A stretch of 40,041 nucleotides of DNA from a virus, in IMG/VR virus record IMGVR_UViG_3300031857_000476, positions 1 to 40,041 of that record. One strand, given 5' to 3'. The notes under the pieces were generated by a model. That model saw only the letters and a list, made by a program, of their open reading frames with translations, had not been told where the DNA came from and made no database searches. Shown here piece by piece: positions 962-9,703 of this stretch. Numbering within the stretch: position 1 is the stretch's first letter; every line of letters begins with the position of its first letter. A program made the translations under genes and the position numbers.

Positions 962-3898
962 TTATGAAAACGCTCCATAACCTCTATCAGTTTGACTACT
1001 GTAAGATTTTTTCAAATTGATTTGACTTTCAAACTCATCTATAGTTTTAGTTCCAAATTTAATAACGGTAGGCTGATCTACTTTTTTAATTAATTCTTGT
1101 ATTGAAGCGTTAACGGTAGCTAATGAAACTGCATTTGCTCCGCCTGCTCCGGCACTTGATGCGTCGCCGCCTCCTGAAGTTGACACTTGCTCTACTTTTG
1201 GCATAACTGACTCAACCCATTCAAATGCTGAATCAAATATTGATCCTATACCGCTAGCGACTGAATTGACTGCCTGCTCTACTGAATTGTCTGACATAGT
1301 ATCGTGTAATTCAATAACTTTATCTATAGTACCGTCAATTGAGGAAGTGTCTCCTATATTACTAACAGCTGCATTAAAACTAGCAAACGCTGCTCCTAAA
1401 GCTGTTATTGCATTTGCAACTGCCATTAATCGTTCAGCGTCAATTGTAGCAAAACGATTAAATTTTTCTACAGGGTCTTCGTCAAAAAATGATGCAAATG
1501 CCGAACCTAAAGCGCCTATACCCGAGCCTCCTCCAAATGCAGCTAACGCTGCTCCAACTGCTACAATTCCAGCAGCCGTGCCTATTAACTTAGCTGAATC
1601 AATATTTTGAAGTTTAATAATCGAAGACGTAATAGTTTCAATTACCAATGCAATTGACTTTCCTACTGTTTCAATTATACCTCCTATTCCATTAAAAAAT
1701 GCTTCAATTCCTGGAGCAGCTGCTCCGATTCCTTGACCTAACCATTGAAATGCTTTTCCTAGTCCCATTAAAGCTAATGTAACAGCTGCCATTCCTATAA
1801 TAATTTCAGGCGTAGCTAATGCAGCCATTGGCTTAAAAAATGCAACTAGCGCTTCTCCTAATCCTCCTAACACGTCTTTAATAACTCCCATTGCACCTTG
1901 CGCAGCGTTACGTAATATATCAAAAAATGCTTTAACTGTATCTCCTAATCCTTTAAGACGATCAGCCATAGACTTTCCTTGTTTAGCTGCTGCATCAGCA
2001 CCGCCCTCTGCGTCGCCGCCGCCTCCAGTAACTTTATCCATTAGCCCGCCGCCGCCAGCACCGCCGCCCATTAATTTTGAAATACCACCTTTAGCCATTT
2101 TAAAGATTTTCCATCCTGCCATGGCTGCTCCGATACCTAAGGTCCATTTTAAAGCAGTCGACATTGATTTTTCCATTTCAGATGTATTTTCTTTAATTGG
2201 AAACATAACTCCATTAATTTTTTCAATTCCTAATGTTATTACATCTATAACGTTTCCGATGTATCCAAATGCAACGCCTAACGCTTCTACTACAGGCATA
2301 GCTATTTTTTCAAACGCCATCATGAGCTTGTTTAGCGACTCTTGAAACTTTTGAGTAGCTTCTTGTTGCTTCTTCTCTTCTTGTTGCATTTTATAAAATG
2401 CAGCTTCTTTACCTGTAAGTGCAGCTGCCTGGCCTTCTTCCAATGCTAATATTTCTTCCGCACGTGCCGCTGATAATCCGTAATCATCATTTAATTGCTT
2501 TGATTTAGTAAGCATTGCGGTCATTTCTTCAACTGACATATTCATGGCCTCTGCCATTGCTTTTTGCTGCAATGGCCCCATTTTTTGAAACTCTTCTAAA
2601 GATCCAGCTTGCTCTAAAATTTCATCTTGCAACTTTCCATATTCTCCAGTAAGAGCGTATTGTCTAGCAGCGTTTAAATTCAAAGATTTACCTGTTAATA
2701 CTTGTGCAGTAAATTGTTTTTCAATGCTAGATTCAATATCTAACATACCTTCACCAATTTTAGATACTTTTTCTAATGATAATCCTAAAAGCTTTCCTTT
2801 AATAACAGCTTTTTCTAATTCTTTACTCGTACCTTTAAATCCAATAACAACTGATTTAGGTATTTTTGCAATTTCTTTCAACGTTTCTTTAGCTCCTAAT
2901 AAACCTTCGCCCATTGTACCAGCTTCAGCTGCTAATTGATCTACGGACATGTTTAGTGCTGTAGCAGTATCGTAAAATGCTTGTGACTCTTCAGCAGTCA
3001 TACCCATTTCAGTACGTAAAGCTGTCATACTTTTTACTAGCTCATTAGATTGCTCATTAGCCATCACTCCCATACTTTTACGCATTTCTACGAGTGTGGT
3101 TTCAACTTCTTTGCCTGTCACTCCTACAAGATGCATTTCATGAGCTAAATGTTCTGCATGCACTGATAAGGCTAATGCATCATCTTTTGCTATGTCTAAA
3201 TCTTTAGAAAATTTAGTAAGCTCTTTATCAAATTCAAATGCTTTATATACTGCTGCTACTGCTAACATTAGTGGTAATAGTGGTGCTAGCGAAGCTAACA
3301 TATTTTTACCAGCCATTTTACTAGCTGTTAATTGATTGACTACATTTTCTTTTATTTTTTCCTTAATTTTATCTAATCCTAAAGCTGTTGATAGTAGTCC
3401 GCCGCCTGGCAACGTTTTAATCCATGAGTCTAACTCATCAATTGGCTCAAGCATTTCCTCATACTTTTCTACTAATTCTTCGGCATGGTGAACTGCTTTT
3501 TTTAATGCTTTATTATGTTCTAAAGAAATTTTAAGCTGCTTTTCTTTACCAGTTAAATATTGCATCTCATTTTTGAGACGTTTTTTCTGCATCTGCATTT
3601 CTTTAACTAATTCTTTACCTTGTAATCGTTGTTCACGAGTCTGACCTTTTAAAAGTTCAGACATTGTACGTGCATAATCATTATATTCTTTTACAGCTTC
3701 TTTTCGTTGTTGAGCAATTTTAAGAATATCTTTTTCTTCTTCTAGTAAAGTTTTAGATAAATCATTTTCAATTTGGCGATCGCGAATAGCTTCTTTACGC
3801 TGTTTGGTTTGTTCTTTAAGAAATTCCAAAAACAGTTTTTGATCTTTCTCATTAAGTTTAACATTTCCGCCTGACGTATTTGAAGTATTTTTTTTCAT
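962..3898 (-). CDS. gp29-like: Tail tape measure protein
   Basis: A 978-residue protein, long and helical, in the place expected for the tape measure: after the gp26-like assembly genes. Residues 13-150 are charged heptad-like coiled coil (many K/E/Q). A hydrophobic stretch lies at about 200-221 (MLASLAPLLPLMLAVAAVYKAF). The middle is alanine-rich and helical. Further hydrophobic, Gly/Ala-rich segments occur in the second half (for example MAAVTLALMGLGKAFQWLG), next to Gly-rich linkers such as KLMGGGAGGGGLMDK. Hydrophobic segments and low-complexity helices are usual for tape measures, whose length sets tail length. T4 gp29 is 590 residues, so this tail is probably much longer. Identification rests on size, composition and context, not on a catalytic motif. 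The start follows the upstream stop by 12 nt and has no clear Shine-Dalgarno sequence. Confidence 0.85.
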   Translation of the reverse strand: MKKNTSNTSGGNVKLNEKDQKLFLEFLKEQTKQRKEAIRDRQIENDLSKTLLEEEKDILKIAQQRKEAVKEYNDYARTMSELLKGQTREQRLQGKELVKEMQMQKKRLKNEMQYLTGKEKQLKISLEHNKALKKAVHHAEELVEKYEEMLEPIDELDSWIKTLPGGGLLSTALGLDKIKEKIKENVVNQLTASKMAGKNMLASLAPLLPLMLAVAAVYKAFEFDKELTKFSKDLDIAKDDALALSVHAEHLAHEMHLVGVTGKEVETTLVEMRKSMGVMANEQSNELVKSMTALRTEMGMTAEESQAFYDTATALNMSVDQLAAEAGTMGEGLLGAKETLKEIAKIPKSVVIGFKGTSKELEKAVIKGKLLGLSLEKVSKIGEGMLDIESSIEKQFTAQVLTGKSLNLNAARQYALTGEYGKLQDEILEQAGSLEEFQKMGPLQQKAMAEAMNMSVEEMTAMLTKSKQLNDDYGLSAARAEEILALEEGQAAALTGKEAAFYKMQQEEKKQQEATQKFQESLNKLMMAFEKIAMPVVEALGVAFGYIGNVIDVITLGIEKINGVMFPIKENTSEMEKSMSTALKWTLGIGAAMAGWKIFKMAKGGISKLMGGGAGGGGLMDKVTGGGGDAEGGADAAAKQGKSMADRLKGLGDTVKAFFDILRNAAQGAMGVIKDVLGGLGEALVAFFKPMAALATPEIIIGMAAVTLALMGLGKAFQWLGQGIGAAAPGIEAFFNGIGGIIETVGKSIALVIETITSSIIKLQNIDSAKLIGTAAGIVAVGAALAAFGGGSGIGALGSAFASFFDEDPVEKFNRFATIDAERLMAVANAITALGAAFASFNAAVSNIGDTSSIDGTIDKVIELHDTMSDNSVEQAVNSVASGIGSIFDSAFEWVESVMPKVEQVSTSGGGDASSAGAGGANAVSLATVNASIQELIKKVDQPTVIKFGTKTIDEFESQINLKKSYSSQTDRGYGAFS

Positions 3899-4264: not shown

Positions 4265-4492
4265 TTACCTTGGTCTTATAGCAGGTCGTTGTATTTTAGG
4301 CACGTTTGGAGCTGACATTTTTTTGCTAGCTTTTTTCTGCGCTTCTAAAGTTTCAGAAATTAATCGTATGTAGAATTTACGTAACCAAACTGGAAACGAA
4401 TACACGGCATCCCAAGTGTATCCTCCCTGCCCATGATACACTAAATTGAAAATTTCAGTATGTAATATTGGTCGATAACTAGGATTTAGGCC
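4265..4492 (-). CDS. Frameshifted C-terminal extension of the gp26-like protein (tail assembly chaperone type)
   Basis: A 75-codon open frame runs from GGC at 4492 to the TAA at 4265-4267. It encodes GLNPSYRPILHTEIFNLVYH followed by GQGGYTWDAVYSFPVWLRKF and a Lys-rich tail ending RPAIRPR. It has no ATG or plausible start near its beginning: a TGA closes this frame 10-12 nt upstream, at 4502-4504, and the first ATG is 58 codons in. It therefore seems to be reached only by a shift from the gp26-like frame at a run of seven T (4493-4499 on the complementary strand). The shift needed is +1, or equivalently -2. An upstream ORF plus a shifted tail-assembly extension just before the tape measure is the layout of G/GT-type tail chaperones. 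A one-base assembly error in the homopolymer would give the same picture. Confidence 0.65.
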   Translation of the reverse strand, partial: GLNPSYRPILHTEIFNLVYHGQGGYTWDAVYSFPVWLRKFYIRLISETLEAQKKASKKMSAPNVPKIQRPAIRPR

Positions 4493-5339
4493 AAAAAAAG
4501 CTCACATCCATAGGTACCTCCATTACCTGACTTTCTCCTGTTTGATTAGAAGTAAATACAAACGTCATATCCAAATCAGGAGTTAGACGTTTGATTTCAT
4601 CACGAATAAATCTAGAGTCTTGAGCAAATAATTCATTGTCAACAAAATTGGAAATGTATTGTTGCTCCTTATTACCATCAACTGAAGTTAATAGATATTT
4701 CATTCGTGTAGTCAATTCTTTATCAATACCTGTTAATTTAGTCATTTTTAATTGACCTTTAACAGCATCACGTACTTTTTTATCTAATCCATGAGTCATT
4801 AATTGAAACGTAACTACTCGTTTTGACACTGGAAGAGTTAGCGTGAATTCGTTTTGATGCGGAGTAAGTGAGTCGTAATCGTATGGTTTAGCTTGAATAC
4901 CTGTCAAATCAATAACAACTTTCTGTTTATCGTCTTGAGAAAACGGATCTGTAATTTCAACTTCATAGTCTTTACCGTATCCTAAAATACGAGCTGCAAT
5001 CATAATTGCATTTTTATCTCCTACTAACAATTCGTCGTAATTAATTGGAGACACGATTAACGATTGAAATAAACGATCTAATACAACCCCTTGCTTAATT
5101 AAGCTAGAAGAAGTTAAAATGTCTTCTTCTTTTGCGGTCATATATTTCATTTCAACTTTTCCTGACGCTAAAGCACTGTCTGCACTATAAAGCAACCCTT
5201 TAGATGGTAGCTCAATTATTTCGGTAGGAAATTTTGAATTTTGTGCTTCTTGACGTTGCATGTTTTGAATAGCTAATTGCTTTAATTCTGCGTCAGATAG
5301 CTCGTTTTGATTTGGGTAATTGTTGTTAACTATTGCCAT
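4479..5339 (-). CDS. gp26: T4 gp26-type baseplate hub / tail assembly protein
   Basis: A 286-residue protein with the hallmarks of the T4 base plate protein family (gp26 type): IIELPSKGLLY at about 42-52, then MKYMTAKEEDIL at about 64-75, and a C-terminal MEVPMDVSFFWP. The ELPSKGxxY and MTAxEEDIL blocks are the strongest identifiers. Family knowledge places it in baseplate hub assembly; here it precedes the tape measure. The frame ends at a TAG four codons after the FFWP motif. A 75-codon extension is available in the +1 frame at that spot, so two products may be made. It starts at 5339 and has an ATATTTAT motif 22 nt upstream. Confidence 0.85.
   Translation of the reverse strand: MAIVNNNYPNQNELSDAELKQLAIQNMQRQEAQNSKFPTEIIELPSKGLLYSADSALASGKVEMKYMTAKEEDILTSSSLIKQGVVLDRLFQSLIVSPINYDELLVGDKNAIMIAARILGYGKDYEVEITDPFSQDDKQKVVIDLTGIQAKPYDYDSLTPHQNEFTLTLPVSKRVVTFQLMTHGLDKKVRDAVKGQLKMTKLTGIDKELTTRMKYLLTSVDGNKEQQYISNFVDNELFAQDSRFIRDEIKRLTPDLDMTFVFTSNQTGESQVMEVPMDVSFFWPKS
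4490..4500 (-). other. Putative programmed frameshift site (T7 slippery run)
   Basis: The sense strand reads AGC TTT TTT TGG CCT in the gp26-like frame. A P-site tRNA-Phe can slip one base forward on TTT-T with full re-pairing, then read GGC CTA AAT into the 75-codon extension. The -1 frame instead hits TAA after two codons (TTG GCC), so only +1 or -2 works. The site overlaps the conserved FFWP end of the upstream protein. Confidence 0.55.
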
Positions 5340-5383: not shown

Positions 5384-5956
5384 TTACAAGTCTCCTGATT
5401 TAGCTGTAAAGTGTATATCCGCTTTATCTTTTAATTTTGCAGAGTCATTAAGCCATTTGCCTAATAGTTCGTCCATATTAGGTAATTCTTCAGACTCAGC
5501 TCCTGGCGATTTAAGTTTAGGCATTATTACTTGATCAATAAACGCTTTTTCTATTTTATCATCAAGCAATTGAGACACTTCCGGAGATAATTTAATTGCT
5601 TCCCAAAATGGTCCTGTCATCTCTTTAAATTCTGATGACTTAGGGTTTTTTAATTCTTTTGCAGTAACTGACTTTCCTAAATCTAATAAAAATGCTCCTA
5701 CGTCTTCTCCGTGATCAGCTACTAAATCTATTATCAATCCAGCAGTGCCTCCAGTAACTAAATTAGCTGCCCATTTAGCTCCTGCCATTCCTACTTTTTT
5801 CAAACTAGACTTTGCAATCTCTCCGGTCGCTCCTTTAGCTCCTCCTGTTTTTTGAGCGTCTATCATAGCGTTTAAAAACGTTTGAACGTCACCCCAAGTT
5901 ACTTTTTCATCAGCTTCTTGTAGTATATTTTCAACTATTGACTTAAGCTTGATCAT
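5384..5956 (-). CDS. Putative internal virion protein with targeting-like N-terminus
   Basis: A 190-residue protein of unknown function. It starts MIKLKSIVENILQEADEK, an amphipathic helix ending at L-Q-E|A (residue 14), a good fit to a T4-type prohead protease site. Residues 55-80 form a Gly/Ala-rich hydrophobic stretch (AANLVTGGTAGLIIDLV). Later comes an acidic helical part, roughly residues 116-145, with KLSPEVSQLLDDKIEKAFID. I believe similar sequences occur in other uncultured T4-like phages, without a known role. The start overlaps the end of the upstream gene by 14 nt, so the two are probably translationally coupled. Confidence 0.75.
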   Translation of the reverse strand: MIKLKSIVENILQEADEKVTWGDVQTFLNAMIDAQKTGGAKGATGEIAKSSLKKVGMAGAKWAANLVTGGTAGLIIDLVADHGEDVGAFLLDLGKSVTAKELKNPKSSEFKEMTGPFWEAIKLSPEVSQLLDDKIEKAFIDQVIMPKLKSPGAESEELPNMDELLGKWLNDSAKLKDKADIHFTAKSGDL

Positions 5957-6369: not shown

Positions 6370-6858
6370 TTAGAACTGCAATATTGCGTAATCGTATTTA
6401 ATTGTAAGCTGAATGTTAATTGCGTCTTCTGTGCTCCAGTCAAAGTCACCAAAGTTAGCGTCTCCAATATAAGCACCTTTCAAAGTCCACTCTTCAACTT
6501 TATCACCAACAGGTCCTAAAGCGTTAAAAGTAATGTCTTTCTTATAAAAGTCAGAGTATCCATTACGACCGGTAACAGACTCGTGAGATAAACGAATCCA
6601 TTCCATTACAGCTTGAGCTGCGGAAGGAACAACTGGATCGTAAAGAGTAATGCTTACGTCATTCCATCTTCCTTTTCCTTTTAATTTACGCTCAACGTTG
6701 ATGTGATCTAACACGACATCGCCAAAAGTAATACCTGGTCGGTTAGCTGCTTTAATTAAGTAAGAAGGAATACCTTCAACGTACATGATGAAACGGTTAG
6801 CCACTTTTGGTTCAAAAGCGGTAAACATTATTTCGGTTGGGTCTAGCAATTCAGCCAT
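6370..6858 (-). CDS. gp19: Tail tube protein (gp19-type)
   Basis: A 162-residue protein, the same size class as T4 gp19 (163 residues). The sequence has features typical of the T4-like tube family: NRFIMYVEGIPSYLIKAANR near residue 21, then WNDVSITLYDP at about 64-74, and SVTGRNGYSDFYKKDI at about 92-107. The C-terminus IQLTIKYDYAILQF is also typical. It polymerises into the inner tube of the contractile tail, inside the sheath. It is a monocistronic unit: an ATATTTAT motif lies 35 nt upstream and a strong terminator follows. A 78-residue tagged gene separates it from the sheath gene. Confidence 0.95.
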   Translation of the reverse strand: MAELLDPTEIMFTAFEPKVANRFIMYVEGIPSYLIKAANRPGITFGDVVLDHINVERKLKGKGRWNDVSITLYDPVVPSAAQAVMEWIRLSHESVTGRNGYSDFYKKDITFNALGPVGDKVEEWTLKGAYIGDANFGDFDWSTEDAINIQLTIKYDYAILQF

Positions 6859-7249: not shown

Positions 7250-9703
7250 TTAAGCTCCTGGGAAAGCAGCTCCGGTTGGTAAAATGTTGAAGTCAATAAT
7301 AATGAATTCAGCGGTCTTCGCAGGTTGCAAGAAGATTTGACCATACATAATGTTTCTGTCGATAACGTCAGGAGTATTATTAGTCTCGTCCATTACAACT
7401 TTAAATGCATACAAACCTTGACGTTGTTGAACTGACTCTAAATATGGATTAACAATATTTAAGAATCTGTTACGAGTTGCTGCTGTATTGTTTTCAAATA
7501 CTAAATACTTAGTTGCAGATGCAATAAATTTCTTAACTGCAATCAACAATCTACGTACATTAATACGATCCAATGCTGATGGTTTAGCTTGAAGAGTCTT
7601 TTGACCCCATACACAAACGCCAACGCCTGGGAAAGTAGCAATTGGATTAACACGTCCTTCATACAACTCATCTCTTTCGGCGTGAGTTAAACGAGTATAC
7701 GCGTCTAATACTGAAGTCAATCCACCACGATTTAAACCTGCAGGGGCATACCATTCAGCAGCTACTCTGTCGTTAAATGCTAACACACCAGGAATAACAA
7801 CACTAGGCGGTACCCATACTGGCTTATTAATATTAGTGTCTACAATTTTAACCCATGGATAATAAGTAGCTCCGTAGTTATTATCTAATGCTGTTACAGC
7901 GTCTGTTGCTGAAGCAATATTGTCAGTTAAACCAACGCAGTCAAATACAAAGAAAGTGTCTCCTCTGTCTTGACACATATTAGCAGCGTAGTCAATAACT
8001 GCTGAGTGCTTGCTTTGAATAACACCTGGCATTACTAACATGTTAATGTCTAATTCATCAACGTTGGATACAGCGTCAATTGCATTTTTATAAACTGAGT
8101 AGTCTTTACCAGACGATCCATTTAAATCGTATCCTTGAGTATTGGCAGCAACAATGTCAGCTCCAACTAAAATTCTACGATTTGGTTGAACTCCATCACT
8201 TCCACCTTGGAAAGGTACAATAAACTTACGAGAATCAACGGTAGTGTTGCTAGATAAATCAATTGCTCCAGAGTATGCAGCTGCAGCAGTCGGGAAATTA
8301 GCTGATGCATGTTGATTAAAGTTTGACAATAAGAAATTAACATTTGAACCAGTCGTTGTACTTGTTGCCGGCAATGGTTTCAAATAATTAATATTATCCG
8401 TTCCAGACAAATCGTAATCAAATCCAAAATGCTTACGCTTATTGTATATTCCATTAACTGTTTGAGTTGCAACGTAGCTAGCAGCAGGGAACCAAGTAGC
8501 AGTTCCTAACGTGCTAGGTATTGTATTAAATAGTGCTTGGAATCCAAAAGGAACTAACTGATTAGAATAGTTGCCTTTTGCAACGTTTTCATCAACTTCA
8601 ACGTATACGTATTTAGATTTATTTGGATAATCTCCGTATACAACTGTTTTACCATTGGTAAATGTTTTATAACGATCTCCAATTTTTCTAGCTATGTAAT
8701 CTGCTGAATTAGGATCTAAGTTAACGTTGTCAAAAGTTTCAACAATGTTAGGACGTACGTCAGAGTCAGTTGCTTCGAATGGAGTACCTAATGCTTTTAA
8801 ATAGGTAGTGTCTACTAAACGAATAGCTACTGCAAACGATCCGTATTCAGAGCCTGGTACAGTTCCAGCTGGCTTAATATTGCTAATAGCAACTTTGATT
8901 TCGTAGTTAGTGTGAACTCCATGAGATATAGTGTGAAGCTTAAATAACGTGTTAGTAGACCCGTTAACTGTTTGAGAAATTATCCAAGGAGTTTCAGCTC
9001 TATTATATGTAGTTAAAAAATCAAATGATCCAGAATATAACTCTAATACACACGCTGGTTGAGCTGCTAACGAAGCAGATGCTGCTTTATTAAAGATGTT
9101 GTATAAATACACAGGATCTTTAGTTGCAGTTGCTTTTTGTCCAAATACTTTAGTTAAGTAATTATCGCTATTTGAATTAATTGATGAACTATATAAAGCA
9201 GTTCCATTTGATCTGCCACTAGGGAACGCTGCTGTATCAACGGTATAACTACCAGATACGCTAATTACTGCAGCTCCAGATACGTTAGATGTTAACGCAG
9301 ACTTTTGAAATAATGCGGTAGTACCATCGTAAAATGCGTCTGTCTGAGATAGAATTTGAGTAGGATGAAGAACAGCTACTAACCTTCTTCCACCCGAACC
9401 TGAAGCAACAACTGCTATAGGGTCTTGAAGTTTGTAACCGTCGTCATGTAAAGTACGAACAACTGTTAGCTGTCCTGAATTTTGTAAATATTCCTTAGCT
9501 GTGTAAGGTAAATATAAATTTGGGTCTGTATCACCAAATACTTGCACAAACTCTCCATAGGAAGTTACGCTGGTCGGTACCATTGCCGGTCCTTTAATAG
9601 TAGGACCGATAAAAGCAGCACCAATATTCGCAATTCCTTGTGGTAAGAAAGACAAGTCTTTTTCCTCGGTAAACACACCAGGGCTGACTATTTTCTCTGC
9701 CAT
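7250..9703 (-). CDS. gp18: Tail sheath protein (gp18-type)
   Basis: An 817-residue protein. The N-terminus EKIVSPGVFTEEKDLSFLPQ followed by GIANIGAAFIGPTIKGPA is the classic start of T4-like sheath proteins. The C-terminal part has FENNTAATRNRFLNIVNPYL, a VVMDETNNTPDVIDRNIM block, then the final IFLQPAKTAEFIIIDFNILP. The conserved ends mediate sheath subunit contacts and contraction around the tube. T4 gp18 is 659 residues, so about 160 extra residues are present, most likely in the Ser/Thr/Gly-rich middle (about 100-500) that faces outward in this family. It is the first gene after an ATATTTAT motif 43 nt upstream and ends at a strong terminator. Confidence 0.96.
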   Translation of the reverse strand: MAEKIVSPGVFTEEKDLSFLPQGIANIGAAFIGPTIKGPAMVPTSVTSYGEFVQVFGDTDPNLYLPYTAKEYLQNSGQLTVVRTLHDDGYKLQDPIAVVASGSGGRRLVAVLHPTQILSQTDAFYDGTTALFQKSALTSNVSGAAVISVSGSYTVDTAAFPSGRSNGTALYSSSINSNSDNYLTKVFGQKATATKDPVYLYNIFNKAASASLAAQPACVLELYSGSFDFLTTYNRAETPWIISQTVNGSTNTLFKLHTISHGVHTNYEIKVAISNIKPAGTVPGSEYGSFAVAIRLVDTTYLKALGTPFEATDSDVRPNIVETFDNVNLDPNSADYIARKIGDRYKTFTNGKTVVYGDYPNKSKYVYVEVDENVAKGNYSNQLVPFGFQALFNTIPSTLGTATWFPAASYVATQTVNGIYNKRKHFGFDYDLSGTDNINYLKPLPATSTTTGSNVNFLLSNFNQHASANFPTAAAAYSGAIDLSSNTTVDSRKFIVPFQGGSDGVQPNRRILVGADIVAANTQGYDLNGSSGKDYSVYKNAIDAVSNVDELDINMLVMPGVIQSKHSAVIDYAANMCQDRGDTFFVFDCVGLTDNIASATDAVTALDNNYGATYYPWVKIVDTNINKPVWVPPSVVIPGVLAFNDRVAAEWYAPAGLNRGGLTSVLDAYTRLTHAERDELYEGRVNPIATFPGVGVCVWGQKTLQAKPSALDRINVRRLLIAVKKFIASATKYLVFENNTAATRNRFLNIVNPYLESVQQRQGLYAFKVVMDETNNTPDVIDRNIMYGQIFLQPAKTAEFIIIDFNILPTGAAFPGA

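Follow-up and report, generated by a model that had tools for sequence, protein, structure and literature searches.

The DNA analysed here, a stretch of 40,041 nucleotides (nt) from a virus (positions 1 to 40,041 of the IMG/VR record IMGVR_UViG_3300031857_000476; hereafter the window), carries on its minus strand a tail gene of the type of T4 gene 26, followed in another reading frame by an extension that lacks a start codon of its own before its conserved part. The following features make up this locus:

4479 to 5339, minus strand: gp26-type gene, the zero frame, encoding a hub/tail assembly chaperone core (the “G-like” product, 286 amino acids); an open reading frame (ORF) with matches to phrog_150 and PF12322
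4491 to 4499, minus strand: predicted shift site, read from the sequence as TTT TTT TGG in the zero frame, with a run of seven T (T7) that appears as A7 at 4493 to 4499
4265 to 4492, minus strand: +1-frame extension of 75 amino acids, similar to the gp51 C-terminal domain (the “T-like” domain); an open frame without its own start before the conserved part
4265 to 5339, minus strand: predicted frameshift product, the gp26 core plus the extension (“GT-like”, 357 amino acids); a fusion of the two frames

The zero-frame product ends in DVSFFWPKS, and the gene thus stops two codons past its FFWP motif, not four as stated in the original prediction. At the junction, the zero frame reads AGC TTT TTT TGG CCT AAA TCC TAG, and skipping one base here leads into GGC CTA AAT and onward through 75 open codons (4492 to 4265), the product of which begins with GLNPSYRPILHTEIFNLVYHGQGGYTWDAVYSFPVWLRKFYI. 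The frame that was proposed to be entered by a shift at the T7 run is thus indeed present, and the −1 frame ends after two codons (TTG GCC TAA), as had also been noted. The +1 frame is closed by a TGA just 5′ of the T7 run, and no ATG, GTG, or TTG precedes the conserved part, the first candidate start being a GTG at extension codon 17. An open frame of 75 codons has a chance probability of P ~0.004 under a dinucleotide model, and in close relatives the substitutions fall mostly at third codon positions of the +1 frame.

The same arrangement recurs widely among related phages. Upon searching the two halves separately against annotated phages (tblastn), we obtained adjoining matches in Microcystis phage Mel-JY01, Flavobacterium phage immuto, and an uncultured jumbo phage, where the offset between the half-matches was exactly that of a +1 shift. 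Among 80 close IMG/VR relatives (100 to 50% identity, 79 with intact data), the motif [C/G]TTTTTTTGGCCT and the extension occur at the +1 offset in 79/79, and in a second set of 97 more distant loci, reached via immuto and LR756508, the extension lies in the +1 frame in 95. The offset is therefore kept in 174/176 IMG/VR relatives with the region intact, down to ~38% identity, and it is also found in Mel-JY01, immuto, LR756508, SP-15, LIS04, and GXN1. Distant sites with the second domain in the +1 frame read GAA TTT TTT CAC (SP-15), GAG TTT TTT AGT (LIS04), and TTC TTT CGT (GXN1). Of the two features that the original prediction had suggested checking in relatives, the offset is kept, and the T run is replaced in some relatives by TTC TTT TGG or TTT CTT TGG. 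Because of the low chance probability, the recurring offset, and the third-position substitutions, we conclude from these sequence comparisons that the extension is coding and conserved, and no sequencing error. Mel-JY01 and immuto each hold a single copy of the extension. In these phages and in SP-15, ORFs annotated as “hypothetical” overlap the extension (immuto, L083, 5848 to 5958; Mel-JY01, L082, 5845 to 6081; SP-15, L189, 4821 to 4940), with starts put at downstream codons or at an upstream TTG. A scan of 84,980 prokaryote genomes yielded one relative only (L285), with the same site, on a contig binned with a Flavobacteriales metagenome-assembled genome; taken together with immuto, this gives a hint that part of the clade infects Bacteroidota.

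The codons at the junction are strongly constrained. Across 63 representatives at ≤90% amino acid identity, the site is TTT TTT TGG CCT in 39, TTT CTT TGG CCT in 18, and TTC TTT TGG CCT in 3, while TTT CTA TGG CCT, TTT CTA TTC CCT, and TTT CTT TAC CCT occur once each. All site variants have UUU followed by U or C, i.e., a zero-frame UUU_Y is present in 63/63, and the second codon is UUU_U or CUU_U in 61/63, where a tRNA in the peptidyl (P) site could re-pair one base forward. The third codon is TGG in 61/63, making UGG the usual codon of the aminoacyl (A) site. Where the second codon encodes Phe, it is TTT in 42/42, compared to a background of 80% TTT, and where it encodes Leu, it is CTT in 19 and CTA in 2. 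These variants fit a predicted +1 slip of the P-site tRNA on UUU_U or CUU_U (UUU_Y). As summarized in PMC10885494, tests in the prfB context place UUU and CUU among the codons most prone to shifting.

Both the family of the gene and its surroundings point to the tail assembly module. The zero-frame product matches phrog_150 (baseplate hub; T4 gp26) with E 7e-10 and PF12322 (T4_baseplate) with E 1e-4, the latter at 22.5 bits, i.e., under the cut-off of 24.5, and its relative in LIS04 matches PF12322 with 5e-24. A structure predicted for the zero-frame protein only (predicted local distance difference test score, pLDDT, 86) gave matches in BFVD to predicted hub proteins of T4-like phages. Some BFVD proteins that share the gp26 fold are longer (A0A8S5RZL9, 430 amino acids; phiRSL1 B2ZYI8, 384 amino acids; Motura A0A514CT42, 438 amino acids) and are possibly in-frame fusions with a second domain. 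The neighboring genes in the window are the following:

962 to 3898, minus strand: tape measure protein, 978 amino acids (BLASTP match, E 7e-20, to the protein annotated as tape measure at the same position in Flavobacterium phage immuto)
3911 to 4219, minus strand: small ORF of 102 amino acids that separates the extension from the tape measure gene (no match to any family)
5384 to 5956, minus strand: ORF of 190 amino acids that separates the tube gene from the gp26-type gene (no family matched convincingly)
6370 to 6858, minus strand: tail tube protein (phrog_4542, E 4e-24)
7250 to 9703, minus strand: tail sheath protein (phrog_23, E 1e-71)

The order is accordingly tail tube, 190-amino acid ORF, gp26-like gene, shifted extension, 102-amino acid ORF, and tape measure, which agrees with the G/GT-type layout that the original prediction had proposed: the chaperone gene sits between the tail tube and tape measure genes. 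Relatives have a similar order, with tube and gp26 in Mel-JY01 and an annotated tube, gp26, and tape measure in immuto, SP-15, and LIS04.

T4 itself supplies a possible counterpart of the extended product. Residues 1 to 201 of T4 gp51 match PF12322 with E 4e-52, and gp51 is thus a gp26 paralogue with an added C-terminal domain; this domain matches phrog_634, the family of small ORFs that follow gp26 in other T4-type phages. In KVP40 and the cyanophages, gp26 is followed by an ORF of 55 to 57 amino acids annotated as gp51, into which the −1 frame runs, and the KVP40 record describes this small ORF as similar to ~40 residues at the T4 gp51 C terminus. Profile comparison (hhalign) aligned the −1 fusions with T4 gp51 colinearly over the full length (Prob 99.4, E 1e-21), and the +1 fusions with the −1 fusions through the junction (Prob 98.8, E 9e-17). 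A hidden Markov model of the extension found KVP40 at 2e-5 and P-SSM2 at 2e-3 in a small database; phrog_634 gave no match to the window extension. Since the +1 fusion has no direct match to T4 gp51, the homology of the extension to gp51 is transitive, via the −1 phages. The earlier idea that the extension plays the part of gp51 thus holds in substance, with the correction that it would correspond to only the ~48-amino acid C-terminal part, the rest of gp51 being the gp26 paralogue. T4 genes 26 and 51 are neighbors, as had been stated, and they are divergent. In Enterobacter phage EC-F2 (L282, a Pseudotevenvirus; 1501 to 2794), unlike in T4, a gp51-like gene is collinear with and adjacent to a probable gp26-like gene. 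Complete genomes hold two PF12322 copies in T4 and one each in P19, KVP40, and P-SSM2. T4 gp28 was considered as a counterpart and rejected, as it belongs to another family (PF11110).

The −1 phages carry their predicted shift site on the same two Phe (FF) codons. At the end of gp26 in P-SSM2-type loci, the sequence is NNT TTT TTC in 80/80. This is a canonical −1 heptamer, and from it the −1 frame continues without a stop into the small ORF. The heptamer U_UUU_UUC is also found in KVP40, Atu_ph07, S-CRM01, and LR756511, and Melnitz-2 and Rhizobium I1_9 have U_UUU_UUU and U_UUU_UUG, respectively. Among 28 representatives of this group, the second Phe codon is TTC in 26/27, compared to 24% TTC overall. 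In Aeromonas phage P19 (L275), an unannotated gp51-type domain lies in the −1 frame after gp26 (~2690 to 2873), and no ATG, GTG, or TTG occurs in that frame across the ~30 codons listed from the FF codons onward, which leaves a shift as the only evident route of expression. P19 looks like a clean case of −1 frameshifting.

We consider it very probable that T4-type phages have in gp26 and its extended form their pair of G/GT tail assembly chaperones, made in the window phage from one gene by a predicted +1 slip and in T4 from two genes. The comparisons above establish that the extension is conserved, coding, and at a +1 offset, that the slip-site codons are biased, and that the parts have homologues; from them, we infer the occurrence of the shift, its efficiency, and the roles of its products. 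Most ribosomes would terminate at the zero-frame TAG, yielding gp26 of 286 amino acids, while some would skip one base at the FF codons and add the second domain, yielding 357 amino acids. By analogy to lambda gpG/gpGT, the short form would coat the tape measure protein; the long, rarer form would link the tape measure to tube subunits or to the hub via its extra domain, and would then leave. T4 probably obtains the equivalent pair, with gp26 as the short form and gp51 as the long one, from duplicated genes, whereas KVP40, the cyanophages, and Aeromonas P19 probably rely on a single gene and a −1 shift at those FF codons.

A number of observations weigh against this proposal. The RNA around the window site showed no sign of a stimulatory structure (z −0.2 to −1.2). 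In four loci, which make up one representative, the second codon is CTA_U, followed by TGG, and in LR756508 CTA_U is followed by TTC. Re-pairing after a slip at this codon would be poor, although the first UUU_C would still allow one. LIS04 is compatible only with a first-codon slip. Neither the window fusion nor the extension (hhalign Prob 1.4) gave a significant direct profile match to T4 gp51. In 24/63 representatives, an ATG lies in the +1 frame ≤90 nt upstream, such that independent initiation is possible in those, though the ATG positions are not conserved. Lastly, the best match of the zero-frame model to a solved structure (Foldseek) was the HK97 tail assembly chaperone 2ob9, a match that speaks for the chaperone reading but is weak and not significant (E 0.54, prob 0.63).

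The last point bears on the most serious alternative, namely, that the frameshift is real but yields parts of the baseplate hub whose role has nothing to do with that of the lambda G/GT chaperones. Some studies report T4 gp26 in the hub (PMC3004832), and neither sequence nor fold gave a significant match to gpG, 2ob9 being the top of a non-significant list. Even so, we find this alternative rather unlikely: the gene sits where G/GT genes do, with the tube gene on one side and the tape measure gene on the other; the logic of a short and a long product is kept while the direction of the shift changes; and T4 gp51 is required for assembly, with function unknown, yet absent from the virion (PMC3004832). 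The same source lists T4 gp26 and gp51 as hub assembly chaperones.

It is also improbable that the extension is translated on its own, as a separate protein coupled to gp26 termination, whether through re-initiation or from a start codon located upstream or internally. Such an arrangement would suit the small ORFs of the cyanophages and KVP40, which have their own ATG near the gp26 stop, and the annotation of Mel-JY01, in which an overlapping ORF starts at TTG; L178, L183, and Vibrio D510 have the extension past the gp26 stop in another frame. However, the TGA before the run and the lack of any start before codon 17 in the window do not fit it, and in 16/63 representatives the +1 frame is free of start codons all the way from the stop that precedes it to extension codon 12. 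Where upstream starts exist, they stand at unconserved positions and mostly lack a Shine-Dalgarno-like motif, and separate translation would leave unexplained both the invariant slip codons and the conserved residues GL..YR 5′ of any start. The loci L178 (TTC TTG TAT) and L183 (TTC CTT TGG) are, moreover, the two of the +1 clade without UUU_Y. In both, the extension is a downstream ORF beyond the gp26 stop, and both are nested inside the +1 clade in the tree. The frameshift was apparently lost secondarily together with the UUU_Y codon, which makes them a small but telling natural control. Since L183 keeps CTT TGG, UUU_Y may be more important than CUU_U.

Marginally less probable still is a different route into the same frame, namely, slippage of the polymerase during transcription of the T7 run or a ribosomal shift of −2. 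The T7 in the window and in most close relatives would permit +1, −2, and transcriptional slippage alike, and the original prediction had left the choice between +1 and −2 open. Yet the offset is the same in relatives that have no T7 but TTT CTT TGG (runs of three) or TTC TTT TGG (a run of four), i.e., no homopolymer, and at TTC TTT TGG the tRNA-Phe would face UCU after a −2 move. We therefore favor +1 over both; that half of the earlier proposal gains support, and −2 is disfavored. Homopolymers are prone to errors, but a sequencing or assembly error, or a decaying gene, is ruled out by the relatives to the point of deserving hardly any weight, as the offset recurs in >170 contigs and in isolate genomes, several of which lack any homopolymer, and substitutions concentrate at third positions.

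A tree of 49 gp26 domains, in which long branches make the deep details uncertain, placed T4 gp26 and gp51 as sister groups inside the −1 clade, beside KVP40 and P19. The other main clade is made up of the +1 phages; close to its base lie a few long −1 branches (Atu_ph07, LR756511, and L188). The simplest reading of these sequences would be a single frameshifting gene whose shift changed direction while the FF motif was conserved, and which was duplicated in the T4 line, where two genes took the place of the shift. More specifically, we think it reasonably probable that the ancestral T4-type tail module had one frameshifting chaperone gene with the FF codons as the slip site, read −1 (U_UUU_UUN) in cyanophages, KVP40, P19, and others and +1 (UUU_Y) in the window clade, and that duplication in T4 gave gp26 as the short, G-like form and gp51 as the long, GT-like form.

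Known systems resemble this one in part. In the lambda G/GT system (PMC5009743), the gene likewise has the major tail protein gene on one side and the tape measure gene on the other, but lambda uses −1 at a canonical heptamer, whereas the window has a predicted +1 slip at UUU_U/CUU_U, in a PF12322 family protein without significant sequence homology to the lambda proteins. T4 gp26/gp51 belong to PF12322, and gp51 would be the in-frame equivalent of the long product; unlike here, T4 has two divergent paralogous genes and no frameshift. KVP40 and the cyanophages (phrog_150 and phrog_634) likewise have both parts, ordered as here, ahead of the tape measure gene, with the shift site on the same FF codons; this site is the canonical −1 heptamer U_UUU_UUC, the parts have so far been annotated as two genes, and in many of these phages the small ORF also has an ATG. 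Elsewhere, too, shifts in tail chaperone genes can lead into the +1 frame, and PMC5009743 cites −2 for Mu and a “very likely” +1 for the haloarchaeal virus HSTV-2. The +1 site of prfB (CUU_U) would involve the same tRNA move as a P-site slip on CUU_U or UUU_U; unlike in prfB, where the A-site codon is a stop, it is here the sense codon UGG, and no conserved upstream Shine-Dalgarno-like element was seen in the contexts listed. In the literature searched, which excluded subscription literature, we found no description of a tail chaperone frameshift in T4-type phages.

If the proposal is true, gp26 and gp51 would gain a concrete role, and the essential yet non-structural nature of gp51 would be explained. 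It would also mean that a shift site can change direction on the same two codons, that recoding can be replaced by gene duplication, and that “gp26” and “gp51” are misannotated as separate or truncated genes in many phage genomes. The recurrence of the predicted shift in T4 relatives, forward or backward, suggests a testable role for T4 gp51.
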